64,000 nucleotides of DNA from Ruficoccus sp. ZRK36 (GTDB lineage Bacteria; Verrucomicrobiota; Verrucomicrobiia; Opitutales; Cerasicoccaceae). The position numbers were made by a program, and so were the translations under genes. The stretch spans positions 759,501 through 823,500 of the forward strand of contig NZ_CP080649.1 of the NCBI RefSeq assembly GCF_019603315.1. Direction: 5' to 3'. Of this stretch, positions 5,397 to 15,118 are shown one piece after another (the stretch's first letter is position 1; each line of letters begins with the position of its first letter). Under the pieces are notes generated by a model that made no database searches, was not told the origin of the DNA, and saw nothing but the letters and a program-made list of their open reading frames with translations.

Positions 5397-7247
5397 ATGT
5401 GCGGAATCGTAGGTTATGTCGGCAAGCATGCCGCCAGCTCCATCCTTGTCGAAGGGCTAAAACATCTCGAATACCGGGGCTATGACTCCTCAGGGATCGC
5501 CCTGGCAGAGGGTAACGGCATCGAAGTCATCAAAAAGACCGGTCGGGTAGCCGTGCTTGCCGGGCTGGCCCAGAAGCATGCCTCCAAGGCCAGCATGGGC
5601 ATCAGCCACACCCGCTGGGCCACCCACGGCGGCGTGACCGACGAAAACGCCCACCCCCACCTTAGCTGGGACAGCAAGATCGCCCTTGTGCACAACGGCG
5701 TGATCGAAAACTACAAAGCCCTGCGCACCTTCCTCGAAGGCGAAGGGGCGACCTTCCGCTCCCAGACGGACTCCGAGGTGCTGGCCAACCTCATCGCCTA
5801 CTACTACAACCTCGATGAAACGGCCCAGAACGGCAACCGCCTGGTCTGCGCCGTCCGCCAGAGCTTGATCCACGTCGAGGGCACCTACGGCATCGCCGTT
5901 ATCTGCGCCGACCTCCCCAACGAGATCGTGGGTGCCCGCAAGGGCTCTCCGCTGTGCATCGGTGTCGGCCACGGTGAGAACCTCATTGCCAGCGATGTGG
6001 CGGCCTTCGTCGGGCGCACCCAGAACGTCGTCTACCTCGACGACGGACAGATCGTCCACCTCAGCCGCGAGGACTTCAGCATCACCACCATTGCCGAGGA
6101 AACGGTCAGCCCCGTCATCAACCAGATCGACTGGAAGATCGAAGAGGCCGAGCTGGGCAGCTACAAGCACTTCATGGAGAAGGAGATCTTCGAGCAGCCC
6201 CAGGCGCTCGAAAACGCCATGCGTGGCCGCTTCTCCGACGACGAGTCCACCGCCAAGTTTGGGGGGCTCAATCTCGACGCCCGCGAATGGCGCCAGGTCG
6301 ACCGTATCGTCTTCTGCGGCTGCGGCACCGCCTGGCACGCCTGCCTCGTGGCCGAGTACCTGATCGAGCGCTTCTCCCGCATCCCCGTCGAGGTCGAGTA
6401 CGCCAGCGAGTTCCGCTACCGTAACGCCCCGCTGGACAAGAACGCGCTGTTCTTCGTGGTCAGCCAGAGCGGCGAGACGATTGACACGCTGGAGGCGCTC
6501 CGCGAGGCCCAACGCAAGGGCTTCCGCGTCCTGGGCATCACCAATGGAGTCGGCTCCACCATCGCCCGCGAGTCCGACGGCGGCGTTTACCAGCACTCCG
6601 GCCCCGAGATCGGTGTGGCCTCGACCAAAGCCTTTACCTCGCAGCTGCTCATCTCCGGCATGCTCGGGCTCTATCTGGGCCGCATGCGCGACCTGTCCTT
6701 CGGGGACGGACGCGAGATGGTCAAGGCCTTCAAGTCCCTACCCGGCCTCATCAGCCAGATTCTCGACCAGGCTGACCAGATTAAGGCTATCGCCGAACGC
6801 TACGCCGAGTTCCAGGACTTCCTTTTCCTCGGCCGCCAGAGCATGTTCCCGATCGCTCTGGAGGGGGCGCTCAAACTCAAGGAAATTTCCTACATCCACG
6901 CTGAGGGCTACCCGGCAGCCGAGATGAAGCACGGCCCCATCGCCCTGATCAGCGAGCAGTGCCCGAGCGTTGTCCTGTCTCCGCATGGTGACACCTTGAA
7001 AAAGGTCATGTCGAACATCGAGGAGACTCGCGCCCGCAAGGGCCGTGTGATCGCCATCACCAGCGCGGGCAAGGACTTCCCGGACTCGGCGGCGGACGAC
7101 ATCATCCGCATCCCCACGGCCCACAGCTGCATCATGCCGATCCTCAGCACCATCCCGCTCCAGCTGCTGGCCTACTACATCGCCTGCAAACGCGGCTGCG
7201 ACGTCGATAAGCCCCGCAATTTAGCCAAGTCGGTGACGGTGGAGTAA
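5397..7247 (+). CDS. glmS: Glutamine--fructose-6-phosphate aminotransferase (GlmS)
   Basis: GlmS converts fructose-6-phosphate and glutamine to glucosamine-6-phosphate, feeding peptidoglycan and amino-sugar synthesis. The start ATG at 5397 places the catalytic Cys2 (MCGIVGYVGK) at the N-terminus of the glutaminase domain; the longer frame from 5343 would bury it. The SIS domains carry FVVSQSGETIDT and a second sugar-binding region. The C-terminus is KPRNLAKSVTVE, the conserved end whose codons are read by TnsD in Tn7. At 616 residues it is full length. A foreign element abuts its stop codon but leaves the coding sequence intact, because the direct repeat restores GTG-GAG-TAA. Its native terminator has probably been displaced. 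Confidence 0.97.
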   Translation: MCGIVGYVGKHAASSILVEGLKHLEYRGYDSSGIALAEGNGIEVIKKTGRVAVLAGLAQKHASKASMGISHTRWATHGGVTDENAHPHLSWDSKIALVHNGVIENYKALRTFLEGEGATFRSQTDSEVLANLIAYYYNLDETAQNGNRLVCAVRQSLIHVEGTYGIAVICADLPNEIVGARKGSPLCIGVGHGENLIASDVAAFVGRTQNVVYLDDGQIVHLSREDFSITTIAEETVSPVINQIDWKIEEAELGSYKHFMEKEIFEQPQALENAMRGRFSDDESTAKFGGLNLDAREWRQVDRIVFCGCGTAWHACLVAEYLIERFSRIPVEVEYASEFRYRNAPLDKNALFFVVSQSGETIDTLEALREAQRKGFRVLGITNGVGSTIARESDGGVYQHSGPEIGVASTKAFTSQLLISGMLGLYLGRMRDLSFGDGREMVKAFKSLPGLISQILDQADQIKAIAERYAEFQDFLFLGRQSMFPIALEGALKLKEISYIHAEGYPAAEMKHGPIALISEQCPSVVLSPHGDTLKKVMSNIEETRARKGRVIAITSAGKDFPDSAADDIIRIPTAHSCIMPILSTIPLQLLAYYIACKRGCDVDKPRNLAKSVTVE

Positions 7248-7248
7248 A
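7236..7248. repeat. attL: left 13-bp direct repeat at glmS stop codon
   Basis: ACGGTGGAGTAAA covers the last glmS codons (T-V-E), the stop codon and one further base. The identical 13-mer recurs at 14482-14494. A 13-bp identity at both ends, overlapping the 3' end of a conserved gene, is typical of tyrosine-recombinase attachment cores. Confidence 0.85.
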
Positions 7249-7260
7249 TTTCCTATAACA
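7248..7260. repeat. Left terminal inverted repeat of the glmS element
   Basis: ATTTCCTATAACA at the left end is the exact reverse complement of TGTTATAGGAAAT at 14459-14471 near the right end. It touches attL directly, while the right copy lies 10 bases inside attR. If the element were circular, the two copies would flank the core as a near-symmetric site, as expected for recombinase or accessory-protein binding. Confidence 0.85.
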
Positions 7261-7584
7261 AAAAGAGATTGGGGTATCCTTATCTCTTTTACGGCAACGC
7301 TCAAGACTCAGCGACTGTCGGTCAACTACGTCGGGAATAAGCGTACGTCTCGTCAAGCACTTATCATTGAGCTACATAACCAAGGGCTCAATGACCGTCA
7401 AATAGCCGATCACCTAAACGGATTGGGTATTACCTCGCCTACGGGGAAAAAGTACTATCCAGAGCTCGTATTCGCAGTCCGTAAGAAGCTAAAGGCCCGC
7501 CAGCAAAGACTTGAGGAATCAGAGCTATCCATTGGGAAAATGGATATTTGTAAATTAAGTGTTAAAACAAAAGAAATGCGATAA
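7261..7584 (+). pseudogene. Start-less recombinase-like helix-turn-helix fragment
   Basis: An open frame runs from glmS's end to TAA at 7582-7584 but contains no ATG, GTG or TTG that could start the visible domain. It reads TLKTQRLSVNYVG, then ALIIELHNQGLNDRQIADHL and GLGITSPTGKKYY. This resembles the DNA-binding 'do-not-repeat' helix-turn-helix and 'N-x-x-G-I-x-T-P-x-G-x-x-W/Y' segment of resolvase/large serine recombinase proteins. In a circular form of the element the frame would remain open across the junction back to 14420, still without a usual start codon. It is most simply a remnant of an earlier recombinase gene. Confidence 0.5.
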
Positions 7585-7646: not shown

Positions 7647-8120
7647 ATGACTTCGGATAGTATACGCAATGCAACCAGATTATTTCTAAACAGTAGGATA
7701 GATGACTATTCAAATTGCATAGCTCTCACCTTGACGATGAAACAGCACTCAGGGGGCTTTAAATTAGACGAAGTGCGTGCCAGTAAAGACTTTAGACACT
7801 TCATGAATGTACTAAATAAGAAGACATTTGGCAAGGCTTTTCAACGTTTCGGGAAACGAATATCAGTCTTACCAGTAATGGAAAACTCAGAAAATGAACG
7901 TCTGCACTTCCATGTCTTACTTCAATGCCCTGATAAATACTCTTCGACTGCGGGCCAGGCCATTTTTGCGCAAAAAGCACAGTCTTTATGGAAAAAGACA
8001 TACTTTGGATATGACCAAACGTCCAGTCGGTTGGCGGCCGACGAAGGCTGGACAGGTTACATAACCAAACTCAAAGGACAAGCCGATCAGATAGACTGGG
8101 AAAATTTCCACTGGAATTGA
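7647..8120 (+). CDS. Small HUH (Rep-like) single-tyrosine endonuclease
   Basis: The 157-residue protein carries the three motifs of rolling-circle Rep/relaxase HUH nucleases in the right order. Motif 1 is the hydrophobic strand CIALTLTMK (about 24-32), motif 2 is H87-F88-H89 in LHFHVLLQCP, and motif 3 is Y138 with K141 in GYITKLKG. Such enzymes nick one strand and stay joined to the 5' end through tyrosine. There is no helicase domain, so it would need host helicase. It is the first intact gene inside the element and is followed by an imperfect hairpin (8156-8181) that could be a nick site or a terminator. A role in element replication or mobilisation is inference. Confidence 0.65.
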   Translation: MTSDSIRNATRLFLNSRIDDYSNCIALTLTMKQHSGGFKLDEVRASKDFRHFMNVLNKKTFGKAFQRFGKRISVLPVMENSENERLHFHVLLQCPDKYSSTAGQAIFAQKAQSLWKKTYFGYDQTSSRLAADEGWTGYITKLKGQADQIDWENFHWN

Positions 8121-8338: not shown

Positions 8339-8575
8339 TCAAGGTTCCACTACTGGATCCAAGCCCTCTAGTTCCTTGATTATCTCTGACGGGAAACAGT
8401 CAAGAGCCCGTGCAATCAAGAAAATCGTAGTCAGCGTCGGCTGAAATTTACCGTTCTCGATTTCAGACAGGAAACTACGGTCTATCCCTGCTCTTTCGCA
8501 CAGACTATCCTGCGAAAGCTTCAACTGACTCCTTCTGCGAGCTATTACACGGCCAAATGCATGCTTAATATCCAA
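8339..8575 (-). CDS. XRE-family helix-turn-helix regulator
   Basis: The 78-residue protein is a single HTH_3 domain. It shows RRRSQLKLSQDSLCERAGI, then the recognition helix region DRSFLSEIENGKFQPTLTTI, and a short acidic tail. Size and sequence resemble C-protein or SinR-like autoregulators. It is divergent from the DUF4352-like gene, and a perfect 24-bp palindrome (8606-8629) lies 31 bases upstream of its start, the obvious operator candidate. A TATAAT stands at 8587-8582 on the minus strand, only six bases before the ATG, which suggests a leaderless transcript. It probably controls itself and the neighbouring element genes. Confidence 0.85.
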   Translation of the reverse strand: MDIKHAFGRVIARRRSQLKLSQDSLCERAGIDRSFLSEIENGKFQPTLTTIFLIARALDCFPSEIIKELEGLDPVVEP

Positions 8576-9314: not shown

Positions 9315-9728
9315 ATGAAAAAAATCGCATTATTTCTTACATTCTTATCCCTTAGCTCGTATCTATTAGCTGAGGAAAATCCACTTATAGGATACTTTAG
9401 TAATGGAGACGATTACGCAAACATTCGCATCGATAAAACTCCCCTCGGTAAATATGAACTGTACCTCAAGCAAAGCGAAGACGGCGACTGGAAAAAAGCA
9501 TGCGACCTAAGGTATCCACGATGGGAAGAGCTAAAGACATTATTTGGCGATACCGCCTTCAGAGTCGGATATGCCTTAGTTCTTCAAGAACAAGCACTGC
9601 CGAATGTAGGATTCTTTTACATCAAGCCCGGTCAATTCGGCACCACCTTCCTACCGGACCCAGTGTACTTAATGTATCTCCAAAAAGGTAACCAAACTAT
9701 AGTCATCGAGAAAGTAAAGAGGGAATAG
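9315..9728 (+). CDS. Hypothetical secreted protein of the element
   Basis: The 137-residue product has a signal peptide (MKKIALFLTFLSLSSYLLA, cleavage before EENP) and no further membrane segment. The mature part of about 118 residues includes KYELYLKQSEDGDWKKACDL and a Tyr/Phe-rich C-terminal half. I recognise no domain. It sits 29 bases after the DUF4352-like gene on the same strand, so the two are probably co-expressed and both act outside the cytoplasm. It converges on the RloC-like gene with about 50 bases between them. Confidence 0.6.
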   Translation: MKKIALFLTFLSLSSYLLAEENPLIGYFSNGDDYANIRIDKTPLGKYELYLKQSEDGDWKKACDLRYPRWEELKTLFGDTAFRVGYALVLQEQALPNVGFFYIKPGQFGTTFLPDPVYLMYLQKGNQTIVIEKVKRE

Positions 9729-9778
9729 CAGACCATCAAAAGATATATAGTGTGCCGCATTAGCCAAGAATGCCACTC

Positions 9779-11944
9779 CTACCTCATCATTACTCGGTAG
9801 TGCTCAGGATATCCAGCAGCTACAAAAACCAACCTCAAGCCCTCCTTAAAACATTCATAATCAAACTCTTTATGGTCAAATATATTTTGTCCGATAGAGT
9901 GTGATTCTCGATTCATAAACCTAGAAAACGCCGCATAGCGGTTCTCTAATAATTCCTTGCGTTGAAATACGTTATTAAAACTCTCTTTACCAATAAAACC
10001 AAAAAAATACTCGATTACATTTCTCATGCAGTTAGCTATTAAAGCAGGCGGCTGATTCGAATCTTTAATTACACTCCAATATGACTGATAGTCATTCTGA
10101 ATCTCATCATAAACCATATTATCGATCCGACTTCCATTCTCATTTTTTATTATCCTAAACAGCCGTTGAGTTTTTTCCCTTCGTTCATGTTTAACATCCG
10201 TAAGTTCGTAAAAAAAATACAAGCTATGCGTAAGAATAAAAACTTGAGAAAATGTGTCTGAGTTAAACATTTCATTTATAATCATTCTTCCCACATGAAA
10301 TATAAAAATATGGGAAAGGCTGGAAATCGGGTCATCAATGACTGCGATTTTTTTGGTACCCACCTCGTCGGCACTACGCTTTCCTTTACATAGTTCCAAA
10401 AAGTACAAGAACGTTATTATCGTCTTCTCCCCCTCGCTCAATGTACGAAACTCACTGTCATCCTTGCCTGGTCGAACTAATCGATAGAAGTCATCAGCAA
10501 CCTTAACTATATTAAACGAGTCGATTCCTAAATTTAAAAGCCCATCATTAATAGACTGCACAGCGTCATCTACGTTTACGGTGTCAGCTTGATGAAGCCT
10601 AATAGCCTCTCGATAGCCATCGAGACGTTTTTCGCATTCTAGAACGTCCGCCTCTAGCTGCGCCAATGAGCCTTGACTTTGCTTACGAGTAGCGACCCAT
10701 GTAGCAATGGTTTGATCATAGTCAAACCGCATATTTGCCCAAAACTCTTCCTTTAAAGACGCCAGCGCACGATCTCTGTTATCAATCTTACTATTATGAG
10801 ATGATATTTCTTTGTTCACATCCTCGATCAACTCATTGACGCTAGCTACCATATCACCGGATTTCTCTAGCTCCAAAGACTTGCTCGGATTGGATAACTT
10901 ATCCTCAATAATAAGTATATTTTTATCGAAACATGCCTTCATCCGATTATACCTCAGCTCAAACTCATCATGATGCTGCTTTAAGAATTGATTATCGGCA
11001 TAACGTGAAATGTCAGGAATCCGACTTATTTGGCTACGATATTCACCTAAAACATCCTTAACCGCTTTTACCTTCTCCTCGTAGCTTGTATCAAAATAAC
11101 TCCTAATTGATTCAACAACCGCCCTCGTAATTGTCTCGTTTTGGCAAAAAGGGCACTTCAAAGCCTCATCACCAACGTCATCTTTAATGTAAGCCAGCCC
11201 ATCCCGGACCCAATCAGAATTCCCCAGTTCATCGATCAATCCTGAAACAGCACTATCCTTATTACCCAAAATCGGAGCTGAAAGTATATCCGCATACTTA
11301 GATTCATCTAAATCTAAGTTGATGCCAAAAATTAAATCGCATTTCGAAGCCGATGGACCACTCAACGACTCCACCTCTTTTTTAATTTCCTGAATAGTTT
11401 TTTTAGGCTTATCTTTTGGCAAATCAACGGAGAGTATATGCTCAAAAAGCCTACTCTTGTTGCCCCTCAAACCATCTAAGCAAAATTCAAGAACACGGTC
11501 ACCTCCGCAGTATGCAGTCTTAATCTTCCAAATCGTATTTTTATGTACATCTTCCTGCCCCTGAGCATCCTCTGTAAGCTTAGCGATCTCTTGCTTCTTC
11601 AGCCGAAGTTTTTCAGTCTCCTCAGCCTTGAGCTTCGATGCATCCTGTATAGCTTTTGCTGCAGTGGAATTTTCTTTGGATAATGTAAATATTCCGGGAA
11701 GTTGATCTTTTACAAAGAAATAATCATTAATAAAGCTATCATTATACACTAAAACTTCCTCATCCTCCATCCCTTCAAAATTACAATATGCATAACGCTC
11801 GTCTTCGGGGTTATACAAATAATGAGAGAGAGTGCTTTTTCCAGTACCGTTTAGACCATAAATAAGGTTTACTTTTTTATCAGTCTCCAGTGATGTTTCG
11901 GCAACGTAGCTAGCCACACCGTTCATTGTGATTTTTGTGATCAT
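9779..11944 (-). CDS. rloC: RloC-like ABC-ATPase anticodon nuclease (phage defence)
   Basis: The 721-residue protein has an AAA_13/SMC-like split ATPase: Walker A GLNGTGKST (31-39), signature LSEGEK (502-507), Walker B KIAVIDDP (532-539) and H-loop LTHS (571-574). Coiled coils flank a CPFC pair at 264-267, the zinc hook of the RloC group. The C-terminal domain has R641-x3-E645 (MRNVIEYFF) and H682 (RESHS), matching in order and spacing the Arg-Glu-His triad of PrrC/RloC anticodon nucleases. Known RloC excises the wobble nucleotide of tRNA and is activated by DNA damage or phage infection, causing abortive infection. It stands alone, with no type I restriction genes nearby. Another AAA_13 effector type cannot be excluded. 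Confidence 0.75.
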   Translation of the reverse strand: MITKITMNGVASYVAETSLETDKKVNLIYGLNGTGKSTLSHYLYNPEDERYAYCNFEGMEDEEVLVYNDSFINDYFFVKDQLPGIFTLSKENSTAAKAIQDASKLKAEETEKLRLKKQEIAKLTEDAQGQEDVHKNTIWKIKTAYCGGDRVLEFCLDGLRGNKSRLFEHILSVDLPKDKPKKTIQEIKKEVESLSGPSASKCDLIFGINLDLDESKYADILSAPILGNKDSAVSGLIDELGNSDWVRDGLAYIKDDVGDEALKCPFCQNETITRAVVESIRSYFDTSYEEKVKAVKDVLGEYRSQISRIPDISRYADNQFLKQHHDEFELRYNRMKACFDKNILIIEDKLSNPSKSLELEKSGDMVASVNELIEDVNKEISSHNSKIDNRDRALASLKEEFWANMRFDYDQTIATWVATRKQSQGSLAQLEADVLECEKRLDGYREAIRLHQADTVNVDDAVQSINDGLLNLGIDSFNIVKVADDFYRLVRPGKDDSEFRTLSEGEKTIITFLYFLELCKGKRSADEVGTKKIAVIDDPISSLSHIFIFHVGRMIINEMFNSDTFSQVFILTHSLYFFYELTDVKHERREKTQRLFRIIKNENGSRIDNMVYDEIQNDYQSYWSVIKDSNQPPALIANCMRNVIEYFFGFIGKESFNNVFQRKELLENRYAAFSRFMNRESHSIGQNIFDHKEFDYECFKEGLRLVFVAAGYPEHYRVMMR

Positions 11945-12229
11945 AATCCGACGGCCTTGAGGTTGGGGGTTTTACTTCACAAAATCAGAAAAACACCCCA
12001 TGTATCACAAATCAAACATATTCACCCAATGGCAAGGAAAAGCTGTAACATAGAAAAACAATCTAACTATTCATAAACAAAATCTAATTCACACTCGGTT
12101 ATTATAGAATATAAATTCCATAATCAGTTACACAAGCCATTGGTTACCATTTACTTATTTTAAGACTTTTTATTTTACGCCCCACACTGATTATATTATA
12201 CTAATTCTATTATAAAAAATAATCAGTAA
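11945..12229. promoter_or_regulatory. AT-rich control region with three copies of a 9-mer
   Basis: These 285 bases separate the divergent RloC-like and tyrosine recombinase genes. ACTGATTAT occurs at 12186-12194 and in reverse orientation (ATAATCAGT) at 12120-12128 and 12219-12227. The last copy ends two bases before the recombinase ATG, so it covers the place of a ribosome-binding site, and none is visible. The pair 12186-12194/12219-12227 can fold as a nine-base stem. Autoregulation by a recombinase or the XRE protein is a guess. No coding frame is apparent. Confidence 0.6.
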
Positions 12230-12829
12230 ATGGCCCTTGGTAAGCAATCAAAGACACTTTCGAGCAAGCAGATCGATGCGATAAGTACCTACCTGCGGAA
12301 CCGCAGGAATGGGATACGAAACAATGCGATCTTCCTTCTCTCAGCCAAAGCTGGACTCCGTGCCAAAGAGATAGCCAATTTAAGATGGTCAATGGTCGTA
12401 GACTCTGATGGACACCTAACCGATACCATTAGCCTCACAGATAGCGCAGCCAAAGGTAGCTCTGGCCGGACTATCCCCATGAATAAGACCGTCTATGCTG
12501 CCCTAGATGAGCTACTCCACATCGAACAGCCGATAGATGGCTTCACGATACAGACTTCATACGTTGTACGGTCTGAACGCTCGACCAGAACAAGCCCGCA
12601 GGTCATCGTGAATATGTTCCAGCGCTGGTATCGAGAGCTTGGCTTCATTGGTTGCTCCTCTCATTCTGGGAGACGAACCTTCATCACCAACGCTGCTCGT
12701 AAAATAAGCCTAGTTGGGGGCTCCATACGTGACGTACAGGCCATCGCCGGACATAAACATCTCCAGACCACTCAACGCTACATAGAATGCGACTCTGAGT
12801 CCCAAAGAAAGGTAGTAGACCTTGTCTGA
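12230..12829 (+). CDS. Short tyrosine recombinase, catalytic domain only
   Basis: The 199 residues form a complete phage-integrase catalytic domain with R44 (AGLRAKEI), K75, H145-x-x-R148 (HSGRR), H175 (AGHKH) and nucleophile Y184 (TTQRYI). It lacks the usual N-terminal core- and arm-binding domains, so it is about half the normal integrase length. Small integron-like or XerH-type enzymes of this size exist. The 13-bp attachment core at glmS is the length expected for a tyrosine enzyme. Its stop codon overlaps the start of the serine recombinase by eight bases, implying co-translation. ATG at 12230 has no clear ribosome-binding site. Confidence 0.85.
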   Translation: MALGKQSKTLSSKQIDAISTYLRNRRNGIRNNAIFLLSAKAGLRAKEIANLRWSMVVDSDGHLTDTISLTDSAAKGSSGRTIPMNKTVYAALDELLHIEQPIDGFTIQTSYVVRSERSTRTSPQVIVNMFQRWYRELGFIGCSSHSGRRTFITNAARKISLVGGSIRDVQAIAGHKHLQTTQRYIECDSESQRKVVDLV

Positions 12830-14456
12830 AATACTCCACATCTATACACGGGTCAGTACCCAGGCTCAAAAGGAAGAAGGAACCTCTCTGGACTCCCAGA
12901 AAGAGCAAGGAATCAGAAAAGCAAAAGAGCTGGGATTTGAATATCAAATTTGGAACGAAGGCGGGCAATCAAGTAGCCATGATGACTTGAGCAACAGGCC
13001 AGTCCTGGCATCCCTGCTGGATCACATCGAAGCAGAAGAGGTAAAACACCTTTGGGTTTACAACACAGACAGGCTTTCACGAAACGATAACACGTGGAGC
13101 ATGATCCGCCTGAGCCTCGTCAAAAACACAGTCACACTCTACACCAACTCCGGCCTCTACCAGCTATCCAACGAAACCGACAAATTCACGCTAGGGATTC
13201 TTTCGTTAATGAGTTCCTACGATAATGCCCTCAGAGCCGAACGAACAAGAACAGGCAAAGTCCAGCGAGTCAAAGAAGGCTTCTGGATGGGCGGCCCACC
13301 GCCATATGGGTACAAGCTCATAAACAAAAAGCTAGAAATCGATCCAGATGAAGCCAAATGGGTGAGATTCATCTTCGAGCAGTTTAGCAAGGGACAGACC
13401 GTCAGATGGATACGAAATAAGCTTCTTGAAAACAAGGTGATGACACGGCGGAAAAACCCCGTTTGGAGCCTTGGGTCCATAGAAAAATTGCTAACCAATA
13501 CGCATTACGGCGGAAGCTACACCTACAAAGACAATAGAGACGGCAATGTACACACGAGTACCTGCCCTAGCCTGCTGCCTGCCACTCTGATAATAGAGGC
13601 ACAAAAAGAGAAGGAGCGACGGTCAAAATTCAGGGCAAAAGAAAGTAATCAGAAGCATTTCTACCTCCTGCGAGGCTTACTTCGGTGTGATCATTGCGGA
13701 GCACACTTCTCCGCTAGACGGTACGCAGTCCAAAAGCGCTCTAGCTACTACTGCCCGAGAAAGGAAAGAAATTATGCCAATGTCCCAGAACGATGCGATA
13801 ACAGTAGGTACCTGAAAATCGAAGAAACCGATGCCCTTATCGTAAGCGCCGTAAAAGAAGTCCTGGCCAACTCGGGCCTATTCAAGCAGGAGATACGAGA
13901 TCATTATCTACAGCAGAATCAAGAGCAGCTACCCAACAAAGACGCTAGGCGAAAAATCAAAGCTCGGATTAGAACACTTACCAAAGACATCAATGATATC
14001 CGGTCCAAAATAACCATACTGAAGGCAGATCATCTACTTGAAAAGACAAGCAACACTCGCCTCAGCTTCATGAAAGTCATATCCGAGATTCAACGCCGGA
14101 TGCTAGTTGCCCAAGCGGAAAAGGAAAAGCTCGAAGAGACTTTGTATAATTTCGATCATCAAGAGCAGTTAAGTGATTGGTTTACAAAATATTCAGAAAG
14201 ACTCAATGAGCTGGATGGCATGGCTGAAAAAGAATGCCAAAAGTTCCTTCAAGGCATTATCGAGTATATTTCAGTGCGCACGATCGATAAGAGGACACAC
14301 CAACTCAAAATCAAATTTCGCTTACCGTACATTAACGGATATTTAAACCCCGATCGCTCCGACGATACAGGCCAAACCCCAGAGGGACCATATGTTAAAA
14401 CCCTGACTGTTGAGGCTAAAAAAAAGCCCACAAACAAAACACTTCAGCCGAAATAA
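12822..14456 (+). CDS. Large serine recombinase
   Basis: The 544-residue protein has an N-terminal resolvase domain with nucleophile S12 (YTRVSTQAQ) and conserved DRLSRN. A recombinase domain follows (FWMGGPPPYGYKL), then a zinc ribbon with C289, C292, C311 and C325, and a C-terminal coiled coil at about 375-445. This is the full layout of a large serine integrase. The start is TTG at 12822, inside the tyrosine recombinase gene, so translation is probably coupled. The gene ends 25 bases before attR. Serine integrases usually leave only a 2-bp shared crossover, so the 13-bp repeats do not by themselves implicate it. It may act in excision, in inversion or on another site. Confidence 0.9.
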   Translation: MSEILHIYTRVSTQAQKEEGTSLDSQKEQGIRKAKELGFEYQIWNEGGQSSSHDDLSNRPVLASLLDHIEAEEVKHLWVYNTDRLSRNDNTWSMIRLSLVKNTVTLYTNSGLYQLSNETDKFTLGILSLMSSYDNALRAERTRTGKVQRVKEGFWMGGPPPYGYKLINKKLEIDPDEAKWVRFIFEQFSKGQTVRWIRNKLLENKVMTRRKNPVWSLGSIEKLLTNTHYGGSYTYKDNRDGNVHTSTCPSLLPATLIIEAQKEKERRSKFRAKESNQKHFYLLRGLLRCDHCGAHFSARRYAVQKRSSYYCPRKERNYANVPERCDNSRYLKIEETDALIVSAVKEVLANSGLFKQEIRDHYLQQNQEQLPNKDARRKIKARIRTLTKDINDIRSKITILKADHLLEKTSNTRLSFMKVISEIQRRMLVAQAEKEKLEETLYNFDHQEQLSDWFTKYSERLNELDGMAEKECQKFLQGIIEYISVRTIDKRTHQLKIKFRLPYINGYLNPDRSDDTGQTPEGPYVKTLTVEAKKKPTNKTLQPK

Positions 14457-14458
14457 AC

Positions 14459-14471
14459 TGTTATAGGAAAT
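14459..14471. repeat. Right terminal inverted repeat of the glmS element
   Basis: TGTTATAGGAAAT is the exact reverse complement of the left copy at 7248-7260. It begins two bases after the serine recombinase stop codon and ends 10 bases before attR. The ten bases between (CTACATTTCC) end in ATTTCC, a direct copy of the start of the left repeat. Confidence 0.85.
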
Positions 14472-14481
14472 CTACATTTCC

Positions 14482-14494
14482 ACGGTGGAGTAAA
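14482..14494. repeat. attR: right 13-bp direct repeat
   Basis: ACGGTGGAGTAAA repeats the glmS stop-codon region at 7236-7248. The bases before it (TTTCC) differ from glmS, so identity starts abruptly, as at a recombination boundary. With the preceding TCC it forms TCCACGGTGGA, an 11-base palindrome centred on the core. Confidence 0.85.
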
Positions 14495-14627
14495 AGGCTG
14501 CCCACCTGGGTTATACCGCAGTCAAAAAGCAGCTTATTCTCTATCATAAGAACGTATCGCCCTCGCTGTATGGGGTTGCATTATGGCATGCGTGGTCATA
14601 ATAAGTGATTATCCCACTTGTTATTAT

Positions 14628-14990
14628 ATGAGCGACCAACCTACCCCCATACCAAGACCAGCTCCCCACCTGTCCCAGAATCCTCCACCCGCTGAAAAAG
14701 CTGGCTGCCTTGAGTCCCTTCTCGGCATCCCCATCTTTCTAATTATATGCATCGGTCTCATCTGCATGATAATCGGAGCAGGTGTGGTCATTAACAAATT
14801 CGACAAAACCAAAGTTTCTCTCAACAAGAATGATGGCTCGGTTAGAGTCGAAGAGACACACTTTTGGTTCTTCAAGGAATACAAAAAATTCCAGTTCCAA
14901 GGCTCAAAATGGGTGGAGGTATCAGAAACAGGAGAAACAAAAGAGCTCTCCCAGACAGAATACCTTCTCACGGATAATTCCGCACAGTAA
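14628..14990 (+). CDS. Hypothetical membrane protein just outside attR
   Basis: The 120-residue product has a Pro-rich N-terminus (MSDQPTPIPRPAPHL), one hydrophobic segment (LLGIPIFLIICIGLICMIIG, about residues 26-45) and a charged C-terminal domain. No family is recognised. An in-frame ATG at 14583 would add 15 residues. An imperfect inverted repeat (14598-14607 with 14615-14627) ends right at the 14628 ATG, and no ribosome-binding site is visible. Composition is AT-rich and the layout (short tail, membrane helix, exported domain) resembles the element's gene at 8680. It may therefore be older element cargo, left outside the present right boundary. The 128 bases after it hold only the trpE promoter region. 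Confidence 0.55.
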   Translation: MSDQPTPIPRPAPHLSQNPPPAEKAGCLESLLGIPIFLIICIGLICMIIGAGVVINKFDKTKVSLNKNDGSVRVEETHFWFFKEYKKFQFQGSKWVEVSETGETKELSQTEYLLTDNSAQ

Positions 14991-15118
14991 AGCTACAGCT
15001 GTTTCCACAGGAACTACCCACGGCTTCAATGGCGATTTCGCCACGTTCATTCGCAACTGAAAACGGGGATTTACTCATCGCGCAGGTTCGGTTTCACTAT
15101 TAGGGTATTTTTCAAACC

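Follow-up and report, generated by a model that had tools for sequence, protein, structure and literature searches.

The 3' end of glmS in this genome is followed by an island that closes with two overlapping recombinase genes of different chemistry, and the locus raises the question of which enzyme carries out the reaction at glmS and what the other one does. The window, i.e., the whole 64,000-nucleotide stretch of Ruficoccus sp. ZRK36 DNA that was analyzed, holds the 7.2-kb island (low GC, about 40 to 46%, within DNA of about 60% GC) between the glmS 3' end on one side and a point 0.6 kb before trpE on the other. TyrR and SerR are its final two genes, at the right end, and are followed by attP. 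The features that define the locus are listed here, with the domains of TyrR and SerR assigned from Pfam.

5397 to 7247, + strand: glmS, the target gene in the host; attL contains its final codons and stop
7236 to 7248, + strand: left copy of the 13-bp direct repeat ACGGTGGAGTAAA
12230 to 12829, + strand: TyrR, catalytic-domain-only tyrosine recombinase, 199 aa, ATG start (Phage_integrase 5.9e-22)
12822 to 14456, + strand: SerR, large serine recombinase, 544 aa, TTG start (Resolvase 4.4e-21, Recombinase 3.6e-12, Zn_ribbon_recom 1.6e-10)
14482 to 14494, + strand: right copy of ACGGTGGAGTAAA, the displaced original glmS tail

The earlier note had described a tyrosine recombinase reduced to its catalytic domain, an 8-bp overlap with a serine recombinase carrying S12 and a zinc ribbon, and a 13-bp repeat at glmS, and each of these held, with the overlap (TTGTCTGA) at positions 12822 to 12829 and the catalytic residues correctly named. 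SerR has the order expected of a large serine integrase, with an N-terminal resolvase domain that carries the nucleophilic serine followed by the Recombinase and zinc-ribbon domains. TyrR has the complete R-K-H-R-H-Y set of a tyrosine recombinase; given that the N-terminal core-binding domain of Xer- and phage-type integrases is absent from its 199 aa (catalytic match at residues 9 to 188), we file it only in the wider tyrosine recombinase superfamily. A structure prediction for TyrR from the single sequence was poor (mean pLDDT of 46) and was set aside. Across three islands there is no variation at R44, K75, H145, R148, H175, and Y184 of TyrR or at S12 and the zinc-ribbon cysteines C289, C292, C311, and C325 of SerR, and we rejected the possibility of dysfunctional enzymes because of this invariance.

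A search of 177 relatives recovered the pair in G002 (same genus; TyrR 97% and SerR 92% identical to the window) and G072 (same order; 64% and 48%), and a sample of 388 genomes drawn from the phylum contributed G317. In all four genomes, the window's included, the pair lies at the glmS 3' end beside trpE. The earlier note had suggested looking for the adjacent pair across genomes, and had counted a single occurrence or disabling mutations against its importance; the pair was found four times with its catalytic residues intact. Between the closest two elements, in the window and G002, dN/dS was 0.07 for TyrR and 0.11 for SerR. Chance adjacency was rejected given the four genomes with the same site and the low dN/dS. 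The 8-bp overlap is kept in G002 and G317, whereas in G072 a 1.1-kb opposite-strand gene (MrcB_N and NOV_C domains) separates the two, so the cotranslation proposed earlier is not obligatory; that two chemistries serve separate jobs within one conserved element is most likely. The family is rare, with four complete pairs among the genomes searched and only fragments of TyrR in G020 and G720. Pattern scans of viral contigs gave no relative of TyrR and only distant relatives of SerR, and a SerR scan of genome contigs gave a single distant match. We found no description of such a pair in the literature covered, which misses many journals.

An empty site in the same genus (G001) shows glmS followed directly by the chromosomal segment that borders attR on its right in the window, and the two glmS genes are 90% identical as far as the stop. 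We reconstructed attP in five elements by combining the element-derived halves of attR and attL, although attL and attR lie on separate contigs in G002 and in G671, a decayed element in which a C-terminal remnant of SerR alone lies beside attR and which has no close TyrR genome-wide. In the window, the two halves are as follows.

7237 to 7260, + strand: right half of attP, now within attL, CGGTGGAGTAAATTTCCTATAACA
14459 to 14482, + strand: left half of attP, now within attR, TGTTATAGGAAATCTACATTTCCA; the central A is its final base

The reconstructed site is 48 bp long, exactly 24 + 24 around A|C, in all five elements, with outer arms (TGTTAYAGG/CCTATAACA) at equal distance, off by one base in G671. 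The dyad matches at 18, 19, 16, 20, and 13 of 24 positions in the five elements, A|C was the best centre in every one, and the score was reached by 0 to 2 of 100,000 shuffles in the window's element, G072, and G317. Symmetry is highest at positions ±12 to 24, the region bound by the zinc ribbon and linker in serine integrases. A serine integrase contacts 50 bp of a pseudo-palindromic attP, 25 bp per half, and recombines at the central dinucleotide (PMC3783163). AC is common to attL and attR in all five elements. Both neighbors of AC differ between attL and attR in G671, and the base to its right differs in G317. Over the 12-bp tail (ACNGTNGARTRA) there are six attL/attR differences, two each in G072, G317, and G671, and all are synonymous or stop-to-stop in glmS, suggesting that the displaced attR copy was probably the working glmS tail before insertion and that the crossover lies at AC, to the left of the differences. 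By comparison alone, then, the exchange falls at a central dinucleotide within a pseudo-palindrome of about 50 bp, as in large serine integrases, so SerR, whose gene ends 2 bp short of attP, is most likely the owner of the glmS reaction. The zinc-ribbon motif shifted 5 bp inward, which the attB of a large serine integrase would be expected to have, was not recognizable by inspection in the glmS attB of the window or of G001; the shifted motif in the TP901 attB was reported to be weakly similar at most (PMC3783163), so its absence does not decide membership among the serine integrases.

We considered what work would then fall to TyrR, and the region upstream of its gene, together with the island's backbone and cargo, bears on this.

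7647 to 8120, + strand: HUH-type replication initiator REP_ORF2-G2P (HxH motif LHFH, YxxK motif YITK)
8339 to 8575, − strand: HTH_3 regulator, found in G002 too
9703 to 12099: cargo segment, replaced in G002
9779 to 11944, − strand: PDC-S06 candidate defence gene (AAA_13), within the cargo segment
12098 to 12127, + strand: proposed TyrR core site I, 12-6-12, GTTATTATAGAA TATAAA TTCCATAATCAG; the cargo-swap breakpoint is at its left arm
12187 to 12216, + strand: putative second TyrR site (II), of accessory type, which overlaps the promoter region (score of 19 versus a maximum of 18 in ten mono-shuffles)

An inverted 12-6-12 Xer-like site is present upstream of TyrR in all islands (CTGATTATCTAC TGTATA AAAGATAACCAG in G072, CTGGTTATCGAA TTACCA AAAGATAATCAG in G317), with one per island at full score and weaker motifs resembling it closer to tyrR. 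Relatives of TyrR (about 50% identity) occur without SerR on Piscirickettsia plasmids, where parAB and a variety of toxin-antitoxin pairs are their neighbors; more distant relatives are found in Caulobacter phages and other phages. The site lies about 100 to 130 bp upstream of the gene in islands and plasmids, at about −122 in the plasmid loci. Judged from sequence alone, this inverted core with accessory motifs upstream of the gene has the layout of a TnpI-type system; no ORF of the size of a Tn3 transposase was seen in the four islands. TyrR is probably a resolvase. The partner of its single full-scoring site must be another copy, and resolution of multimers or cointegrates is favored because each element has a single site.

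The cargo swaps would be accounted for by exchange from one element to another. The backbones of the window's element and G002 are about 90% identical, with 9703 to 12099 swapped outright (against the reverse complement of 2588 to 5127 in contig L012). PADLOC typed the cargo of the window's element as PDC-S06 and that of G002 as PD-Lambda-5 A and B, and it gave a DruM2-type methylase for G072; G072 further carries a CyRepA1 replication protein, and G317 a PIN-domain protein. Rep homologues lie at the left end in G002, G072, G317, G487, and, in part, G666. As observations in their own right, a candidate defence gene has thus been cleanly exchanged for PD-Lambda-5 in an otherwise conserved island, and an IS30-type element (L012 positions 14097 to 15053; end of L043) interrupts the G002 island and divides it over two contigs. 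On the Piscirickettsia plasmid loci L022 and L044 to L049, each TyrR relative stands with a different toxin-antitoxin pair, and homology stops at a 28-bp Xer-like site.

It is therefore worth weighing whether TyrR is mainly a shuffler of cargo cassettes, Xer/pdif-like, rather than a resolvase of multimers, with SerR still the integrase. Homology between related loci stops at the site, at 12100 in the window versus G002 and at −126 and −130 in two plasmid pairs with different toxin-antitoxin genes (the pair breaking at −130 is 96% identical up to the site, with none past it), and the site in plasmid locus L044 appears to be a hybrid that combines two types of site. However, a pdif-like system requires sites that flank a module, and no module between paired Xer sites was seen, each island having one full-scoring site; homologous recombination could equally give the cargo junctions. 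We regard a shuffler as unlikely.

The earlier note had favored the reverse assignment, with TyrR as the glmS integrase and SerR as a resolvase or DNA-binding helper. Tyrosine integrases typically insert at the 3' end of a gene and leave a short direct repeat, and TyrR is catalytically intact by its residues. Against this, no 6- to 8-bp stretch is identical between attL and attR across all elements, so that any placement of such an overlap demands later mutations in at least two elements, and the outer arms at ±13 to 24 lie past the expected reach of a core-only tyrosine enzyme. Moreover, TyrR has a different site of its own and relatives on plasmids and phages. The 48-bp dyad, its AC centre, the attL/attR differences beside AC, the position of SerR next to attP, and the unrelated Xer-like site upstream of TyrR leave unsupported a glmS reaction by the tyrosine enzyme to which SerR lends its DNA binding. 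We consider this assignment improbable; it is probably wrong and needs inverting. Joint action of both enzymes in one recombination complex is very improbable, since the 8-bp overlap and conserved linkage that speak for it are set against different chemistries, different site anatomies, TyrR relatives without SerR, and the G072 genes held 1.1 kb apart by an opposite-strand gene. A common site for both enzymes was also tried and rejected, given that no arms were shared across all elements.

We return to SerR as the glmS integrase, most likely, and TyrR as an enzyme of internal resolution or exchange. As a whole explanation, we think that a small integrative island with defence cargo, its recombination tasks divided between the two enzymes, is probably right. 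The evidence argues strongly that SerR would join attP to the last glmS codons across the 2-bp AC core and that the element's own copy of the tail would restore glmS upon integration. Excision would give a circle with tyrR, serR, attP, the HTH frame, and rep all on one strand, an order that could allow transcription of the HUH initiator and replication of the circle. TyrR would resolve multimers or cointegrates by working at the 12-6-12 site that lies a short way upstream of tyrR. The site and the breakpoints are seen in the alignments, and recombination between sites of different elements would exchange the cargo that adjoins the site.

The order of genes in the predicted circle places two further features on either side of attP.

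7237 to 7584, + strand: conserved open frame at the left end, with an HTH and weak PF07508 similarity; no ATG, GTG, or TTG at its head
14418 to 14425, + strand: A8 run, GCT AAA AAA AAG, with an A_AAA_AAG slippery heptamer, 41 nt before attP

The A_AAA_AAG heptamer is a slippery sequence, as in dnaX. Each intact SerR, in four elements, ends with an in-frame A8 (GCT or ACT, then AAA AAA AAG/C), at 41, 41, 41, and 38 nt from attP, a distance constant modulo 3. The context at the end of SerR is GCTAAAAAAAAG, of which GCGAAGAAGAAA is a synonymous version, and such A runs are rare in these loci, with four in the 64-kb window, that of SerR included. Across the circular junction (14415 to 14482 joined to 7237 to 7584), the −1 frame, read from A8, stays open across attP and on into the left-end ORF in 4 of 4 elements; the chance of an open −1 frame is about 0.3 to 0.4 per element, which makes the open frame weak evidence by itself. 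Starting at the att centre, the left ORF can be aligned gap-free over about 95 codons in seven elements, and its conserved head has no ATG, GTG, or TTG in G317, G487, and G666; an ATG in G002 is ACG in the window. Differences in the head favor third codon positions in several pairs but not in all (10, 4, and 17 for G317 versus G487). Integration swaps the upstream half, which brings a TGA into that frame in the window's element, G002, and G072.

We propose that the left-end frame is a C-terminal extension of SerR in the circle; it is also a candidate for the separate recombination directionality factor (RDF) that large serine integrases require for excision. A −1 frameshift at A8 in the circle would extend SerR across attP with a DNA-binding domain, and integration would thereby alter the integrase: in the window's element, we infer a circle-specific SerR of about 669 aa, spanning CYRKSTFPRWSKFPITK at the predicted junction, versus 544 aa in the chromosome. 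The hairpin of attP was considered as a frameshift stimulator and dropped, since it lies about 33 nt past the A8 run. Tentatively, as a possibility worth serious attention, the integrase may in this way sense its own integration, with excision coupled to replication (rep being downstream of tyrR-serR) and the products resolved by TyrR. Two precedents bear on the idea: the repressor of mycobacteriophage BPs is truncated through integration at an internal attP (PMC4557955), and engineered integrase-RDF fusions reverse direction (PMC5737554). As in the integration-dependent immunity of BPs, an open frame would cross attP and integration would truncate a protein; the protein in BPs is a repressor read directly, whereas here it would be the integrase, read through a −1 frameshift. 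If the frame is used, the integrase gene would include the attachment site and so form a simple state sensor; such a sensor, if real, might account for directionality in small islands and could serve as a self-switching integrase tool.

The island and its recombinases resemble several described systems. The resolvase, recombinase, and zinc-ribbon domains of SerR are those of the large serine integrases (A118/LI, phiC31, SPbeta) and of SCC Ccr, and the island resembles them in the length (about 50 bp), symmetry, and 2-bp core of its attP; it differs from both in its tyrosine recombinase partner and attP-spanning frame. Like SCC, it has the 3' end of a housekeeping gene as its insertion point and carries genes for replication-like proteins, but its target is glmS rather than rlmH, and SerR scores 104 bits with the CcrB model against a cutoff of 900, with the CcrA, CcrB, and CcrC models all giving scores far below cutoff. 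TnpI-IRS resolution systems carry toxin-antitoxin genes beside the resolvase (PMC7157771). TyrR shares with the TnpI-IRS of Tn4430 and Tn5401 an inverted-repeat core with further motifs just upstream of the gene, and its plasmid relatives share the neighboring toxin-antitoxin genes; the island differs in having no Tn3 transposase and a recombinase without the N-terminal domain, known here through its sequence. The Xer/pdif modules of Acinetobacter plasmids have similar 28- to 30-bp sites with a 6-bp centre at the junctions of exchangeable modules, often toxin-antitoxin, whereas the island has a dedicated, element-borne recombinase and a single site in place of flanking pairs. The element illustrates how enzymes of both chemistries can coexist without duplicating each other, the serine recombinase being proposed for integration into the chromosome and the tyrosine recombinase for an internal Xer-like site that borders exchangeable anti-phage cargo. 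A serine-integrase genomic island with defence cargo is thus of a known kind, and the frame at attP would be the specific new feature.

Several partial loci were seen at glmS. The left end and Rep are present in G487 and G666, with no close SerR or TyrR in either assembly. In G003 (L071, reverse complement of 850 to 2160), a decayed attL at glmS is followed by a 402-aa gene, which may encode a nuclease, with no recombinases; this locus is a probable island remnant. In G664 (L074), a second, decayed copy of the final 56 glmS codons lies about 0.9 kb past an intact attL; this looks like the trace of an earlier insertion that replaced more of the glmS end. An ORF for a 135-aa membrane-like protein (14583 to 14990), to the right of attR in the window, was considered as island DNA and rejected, since G001, without the island, has the same gene; it is native to the chromosome.
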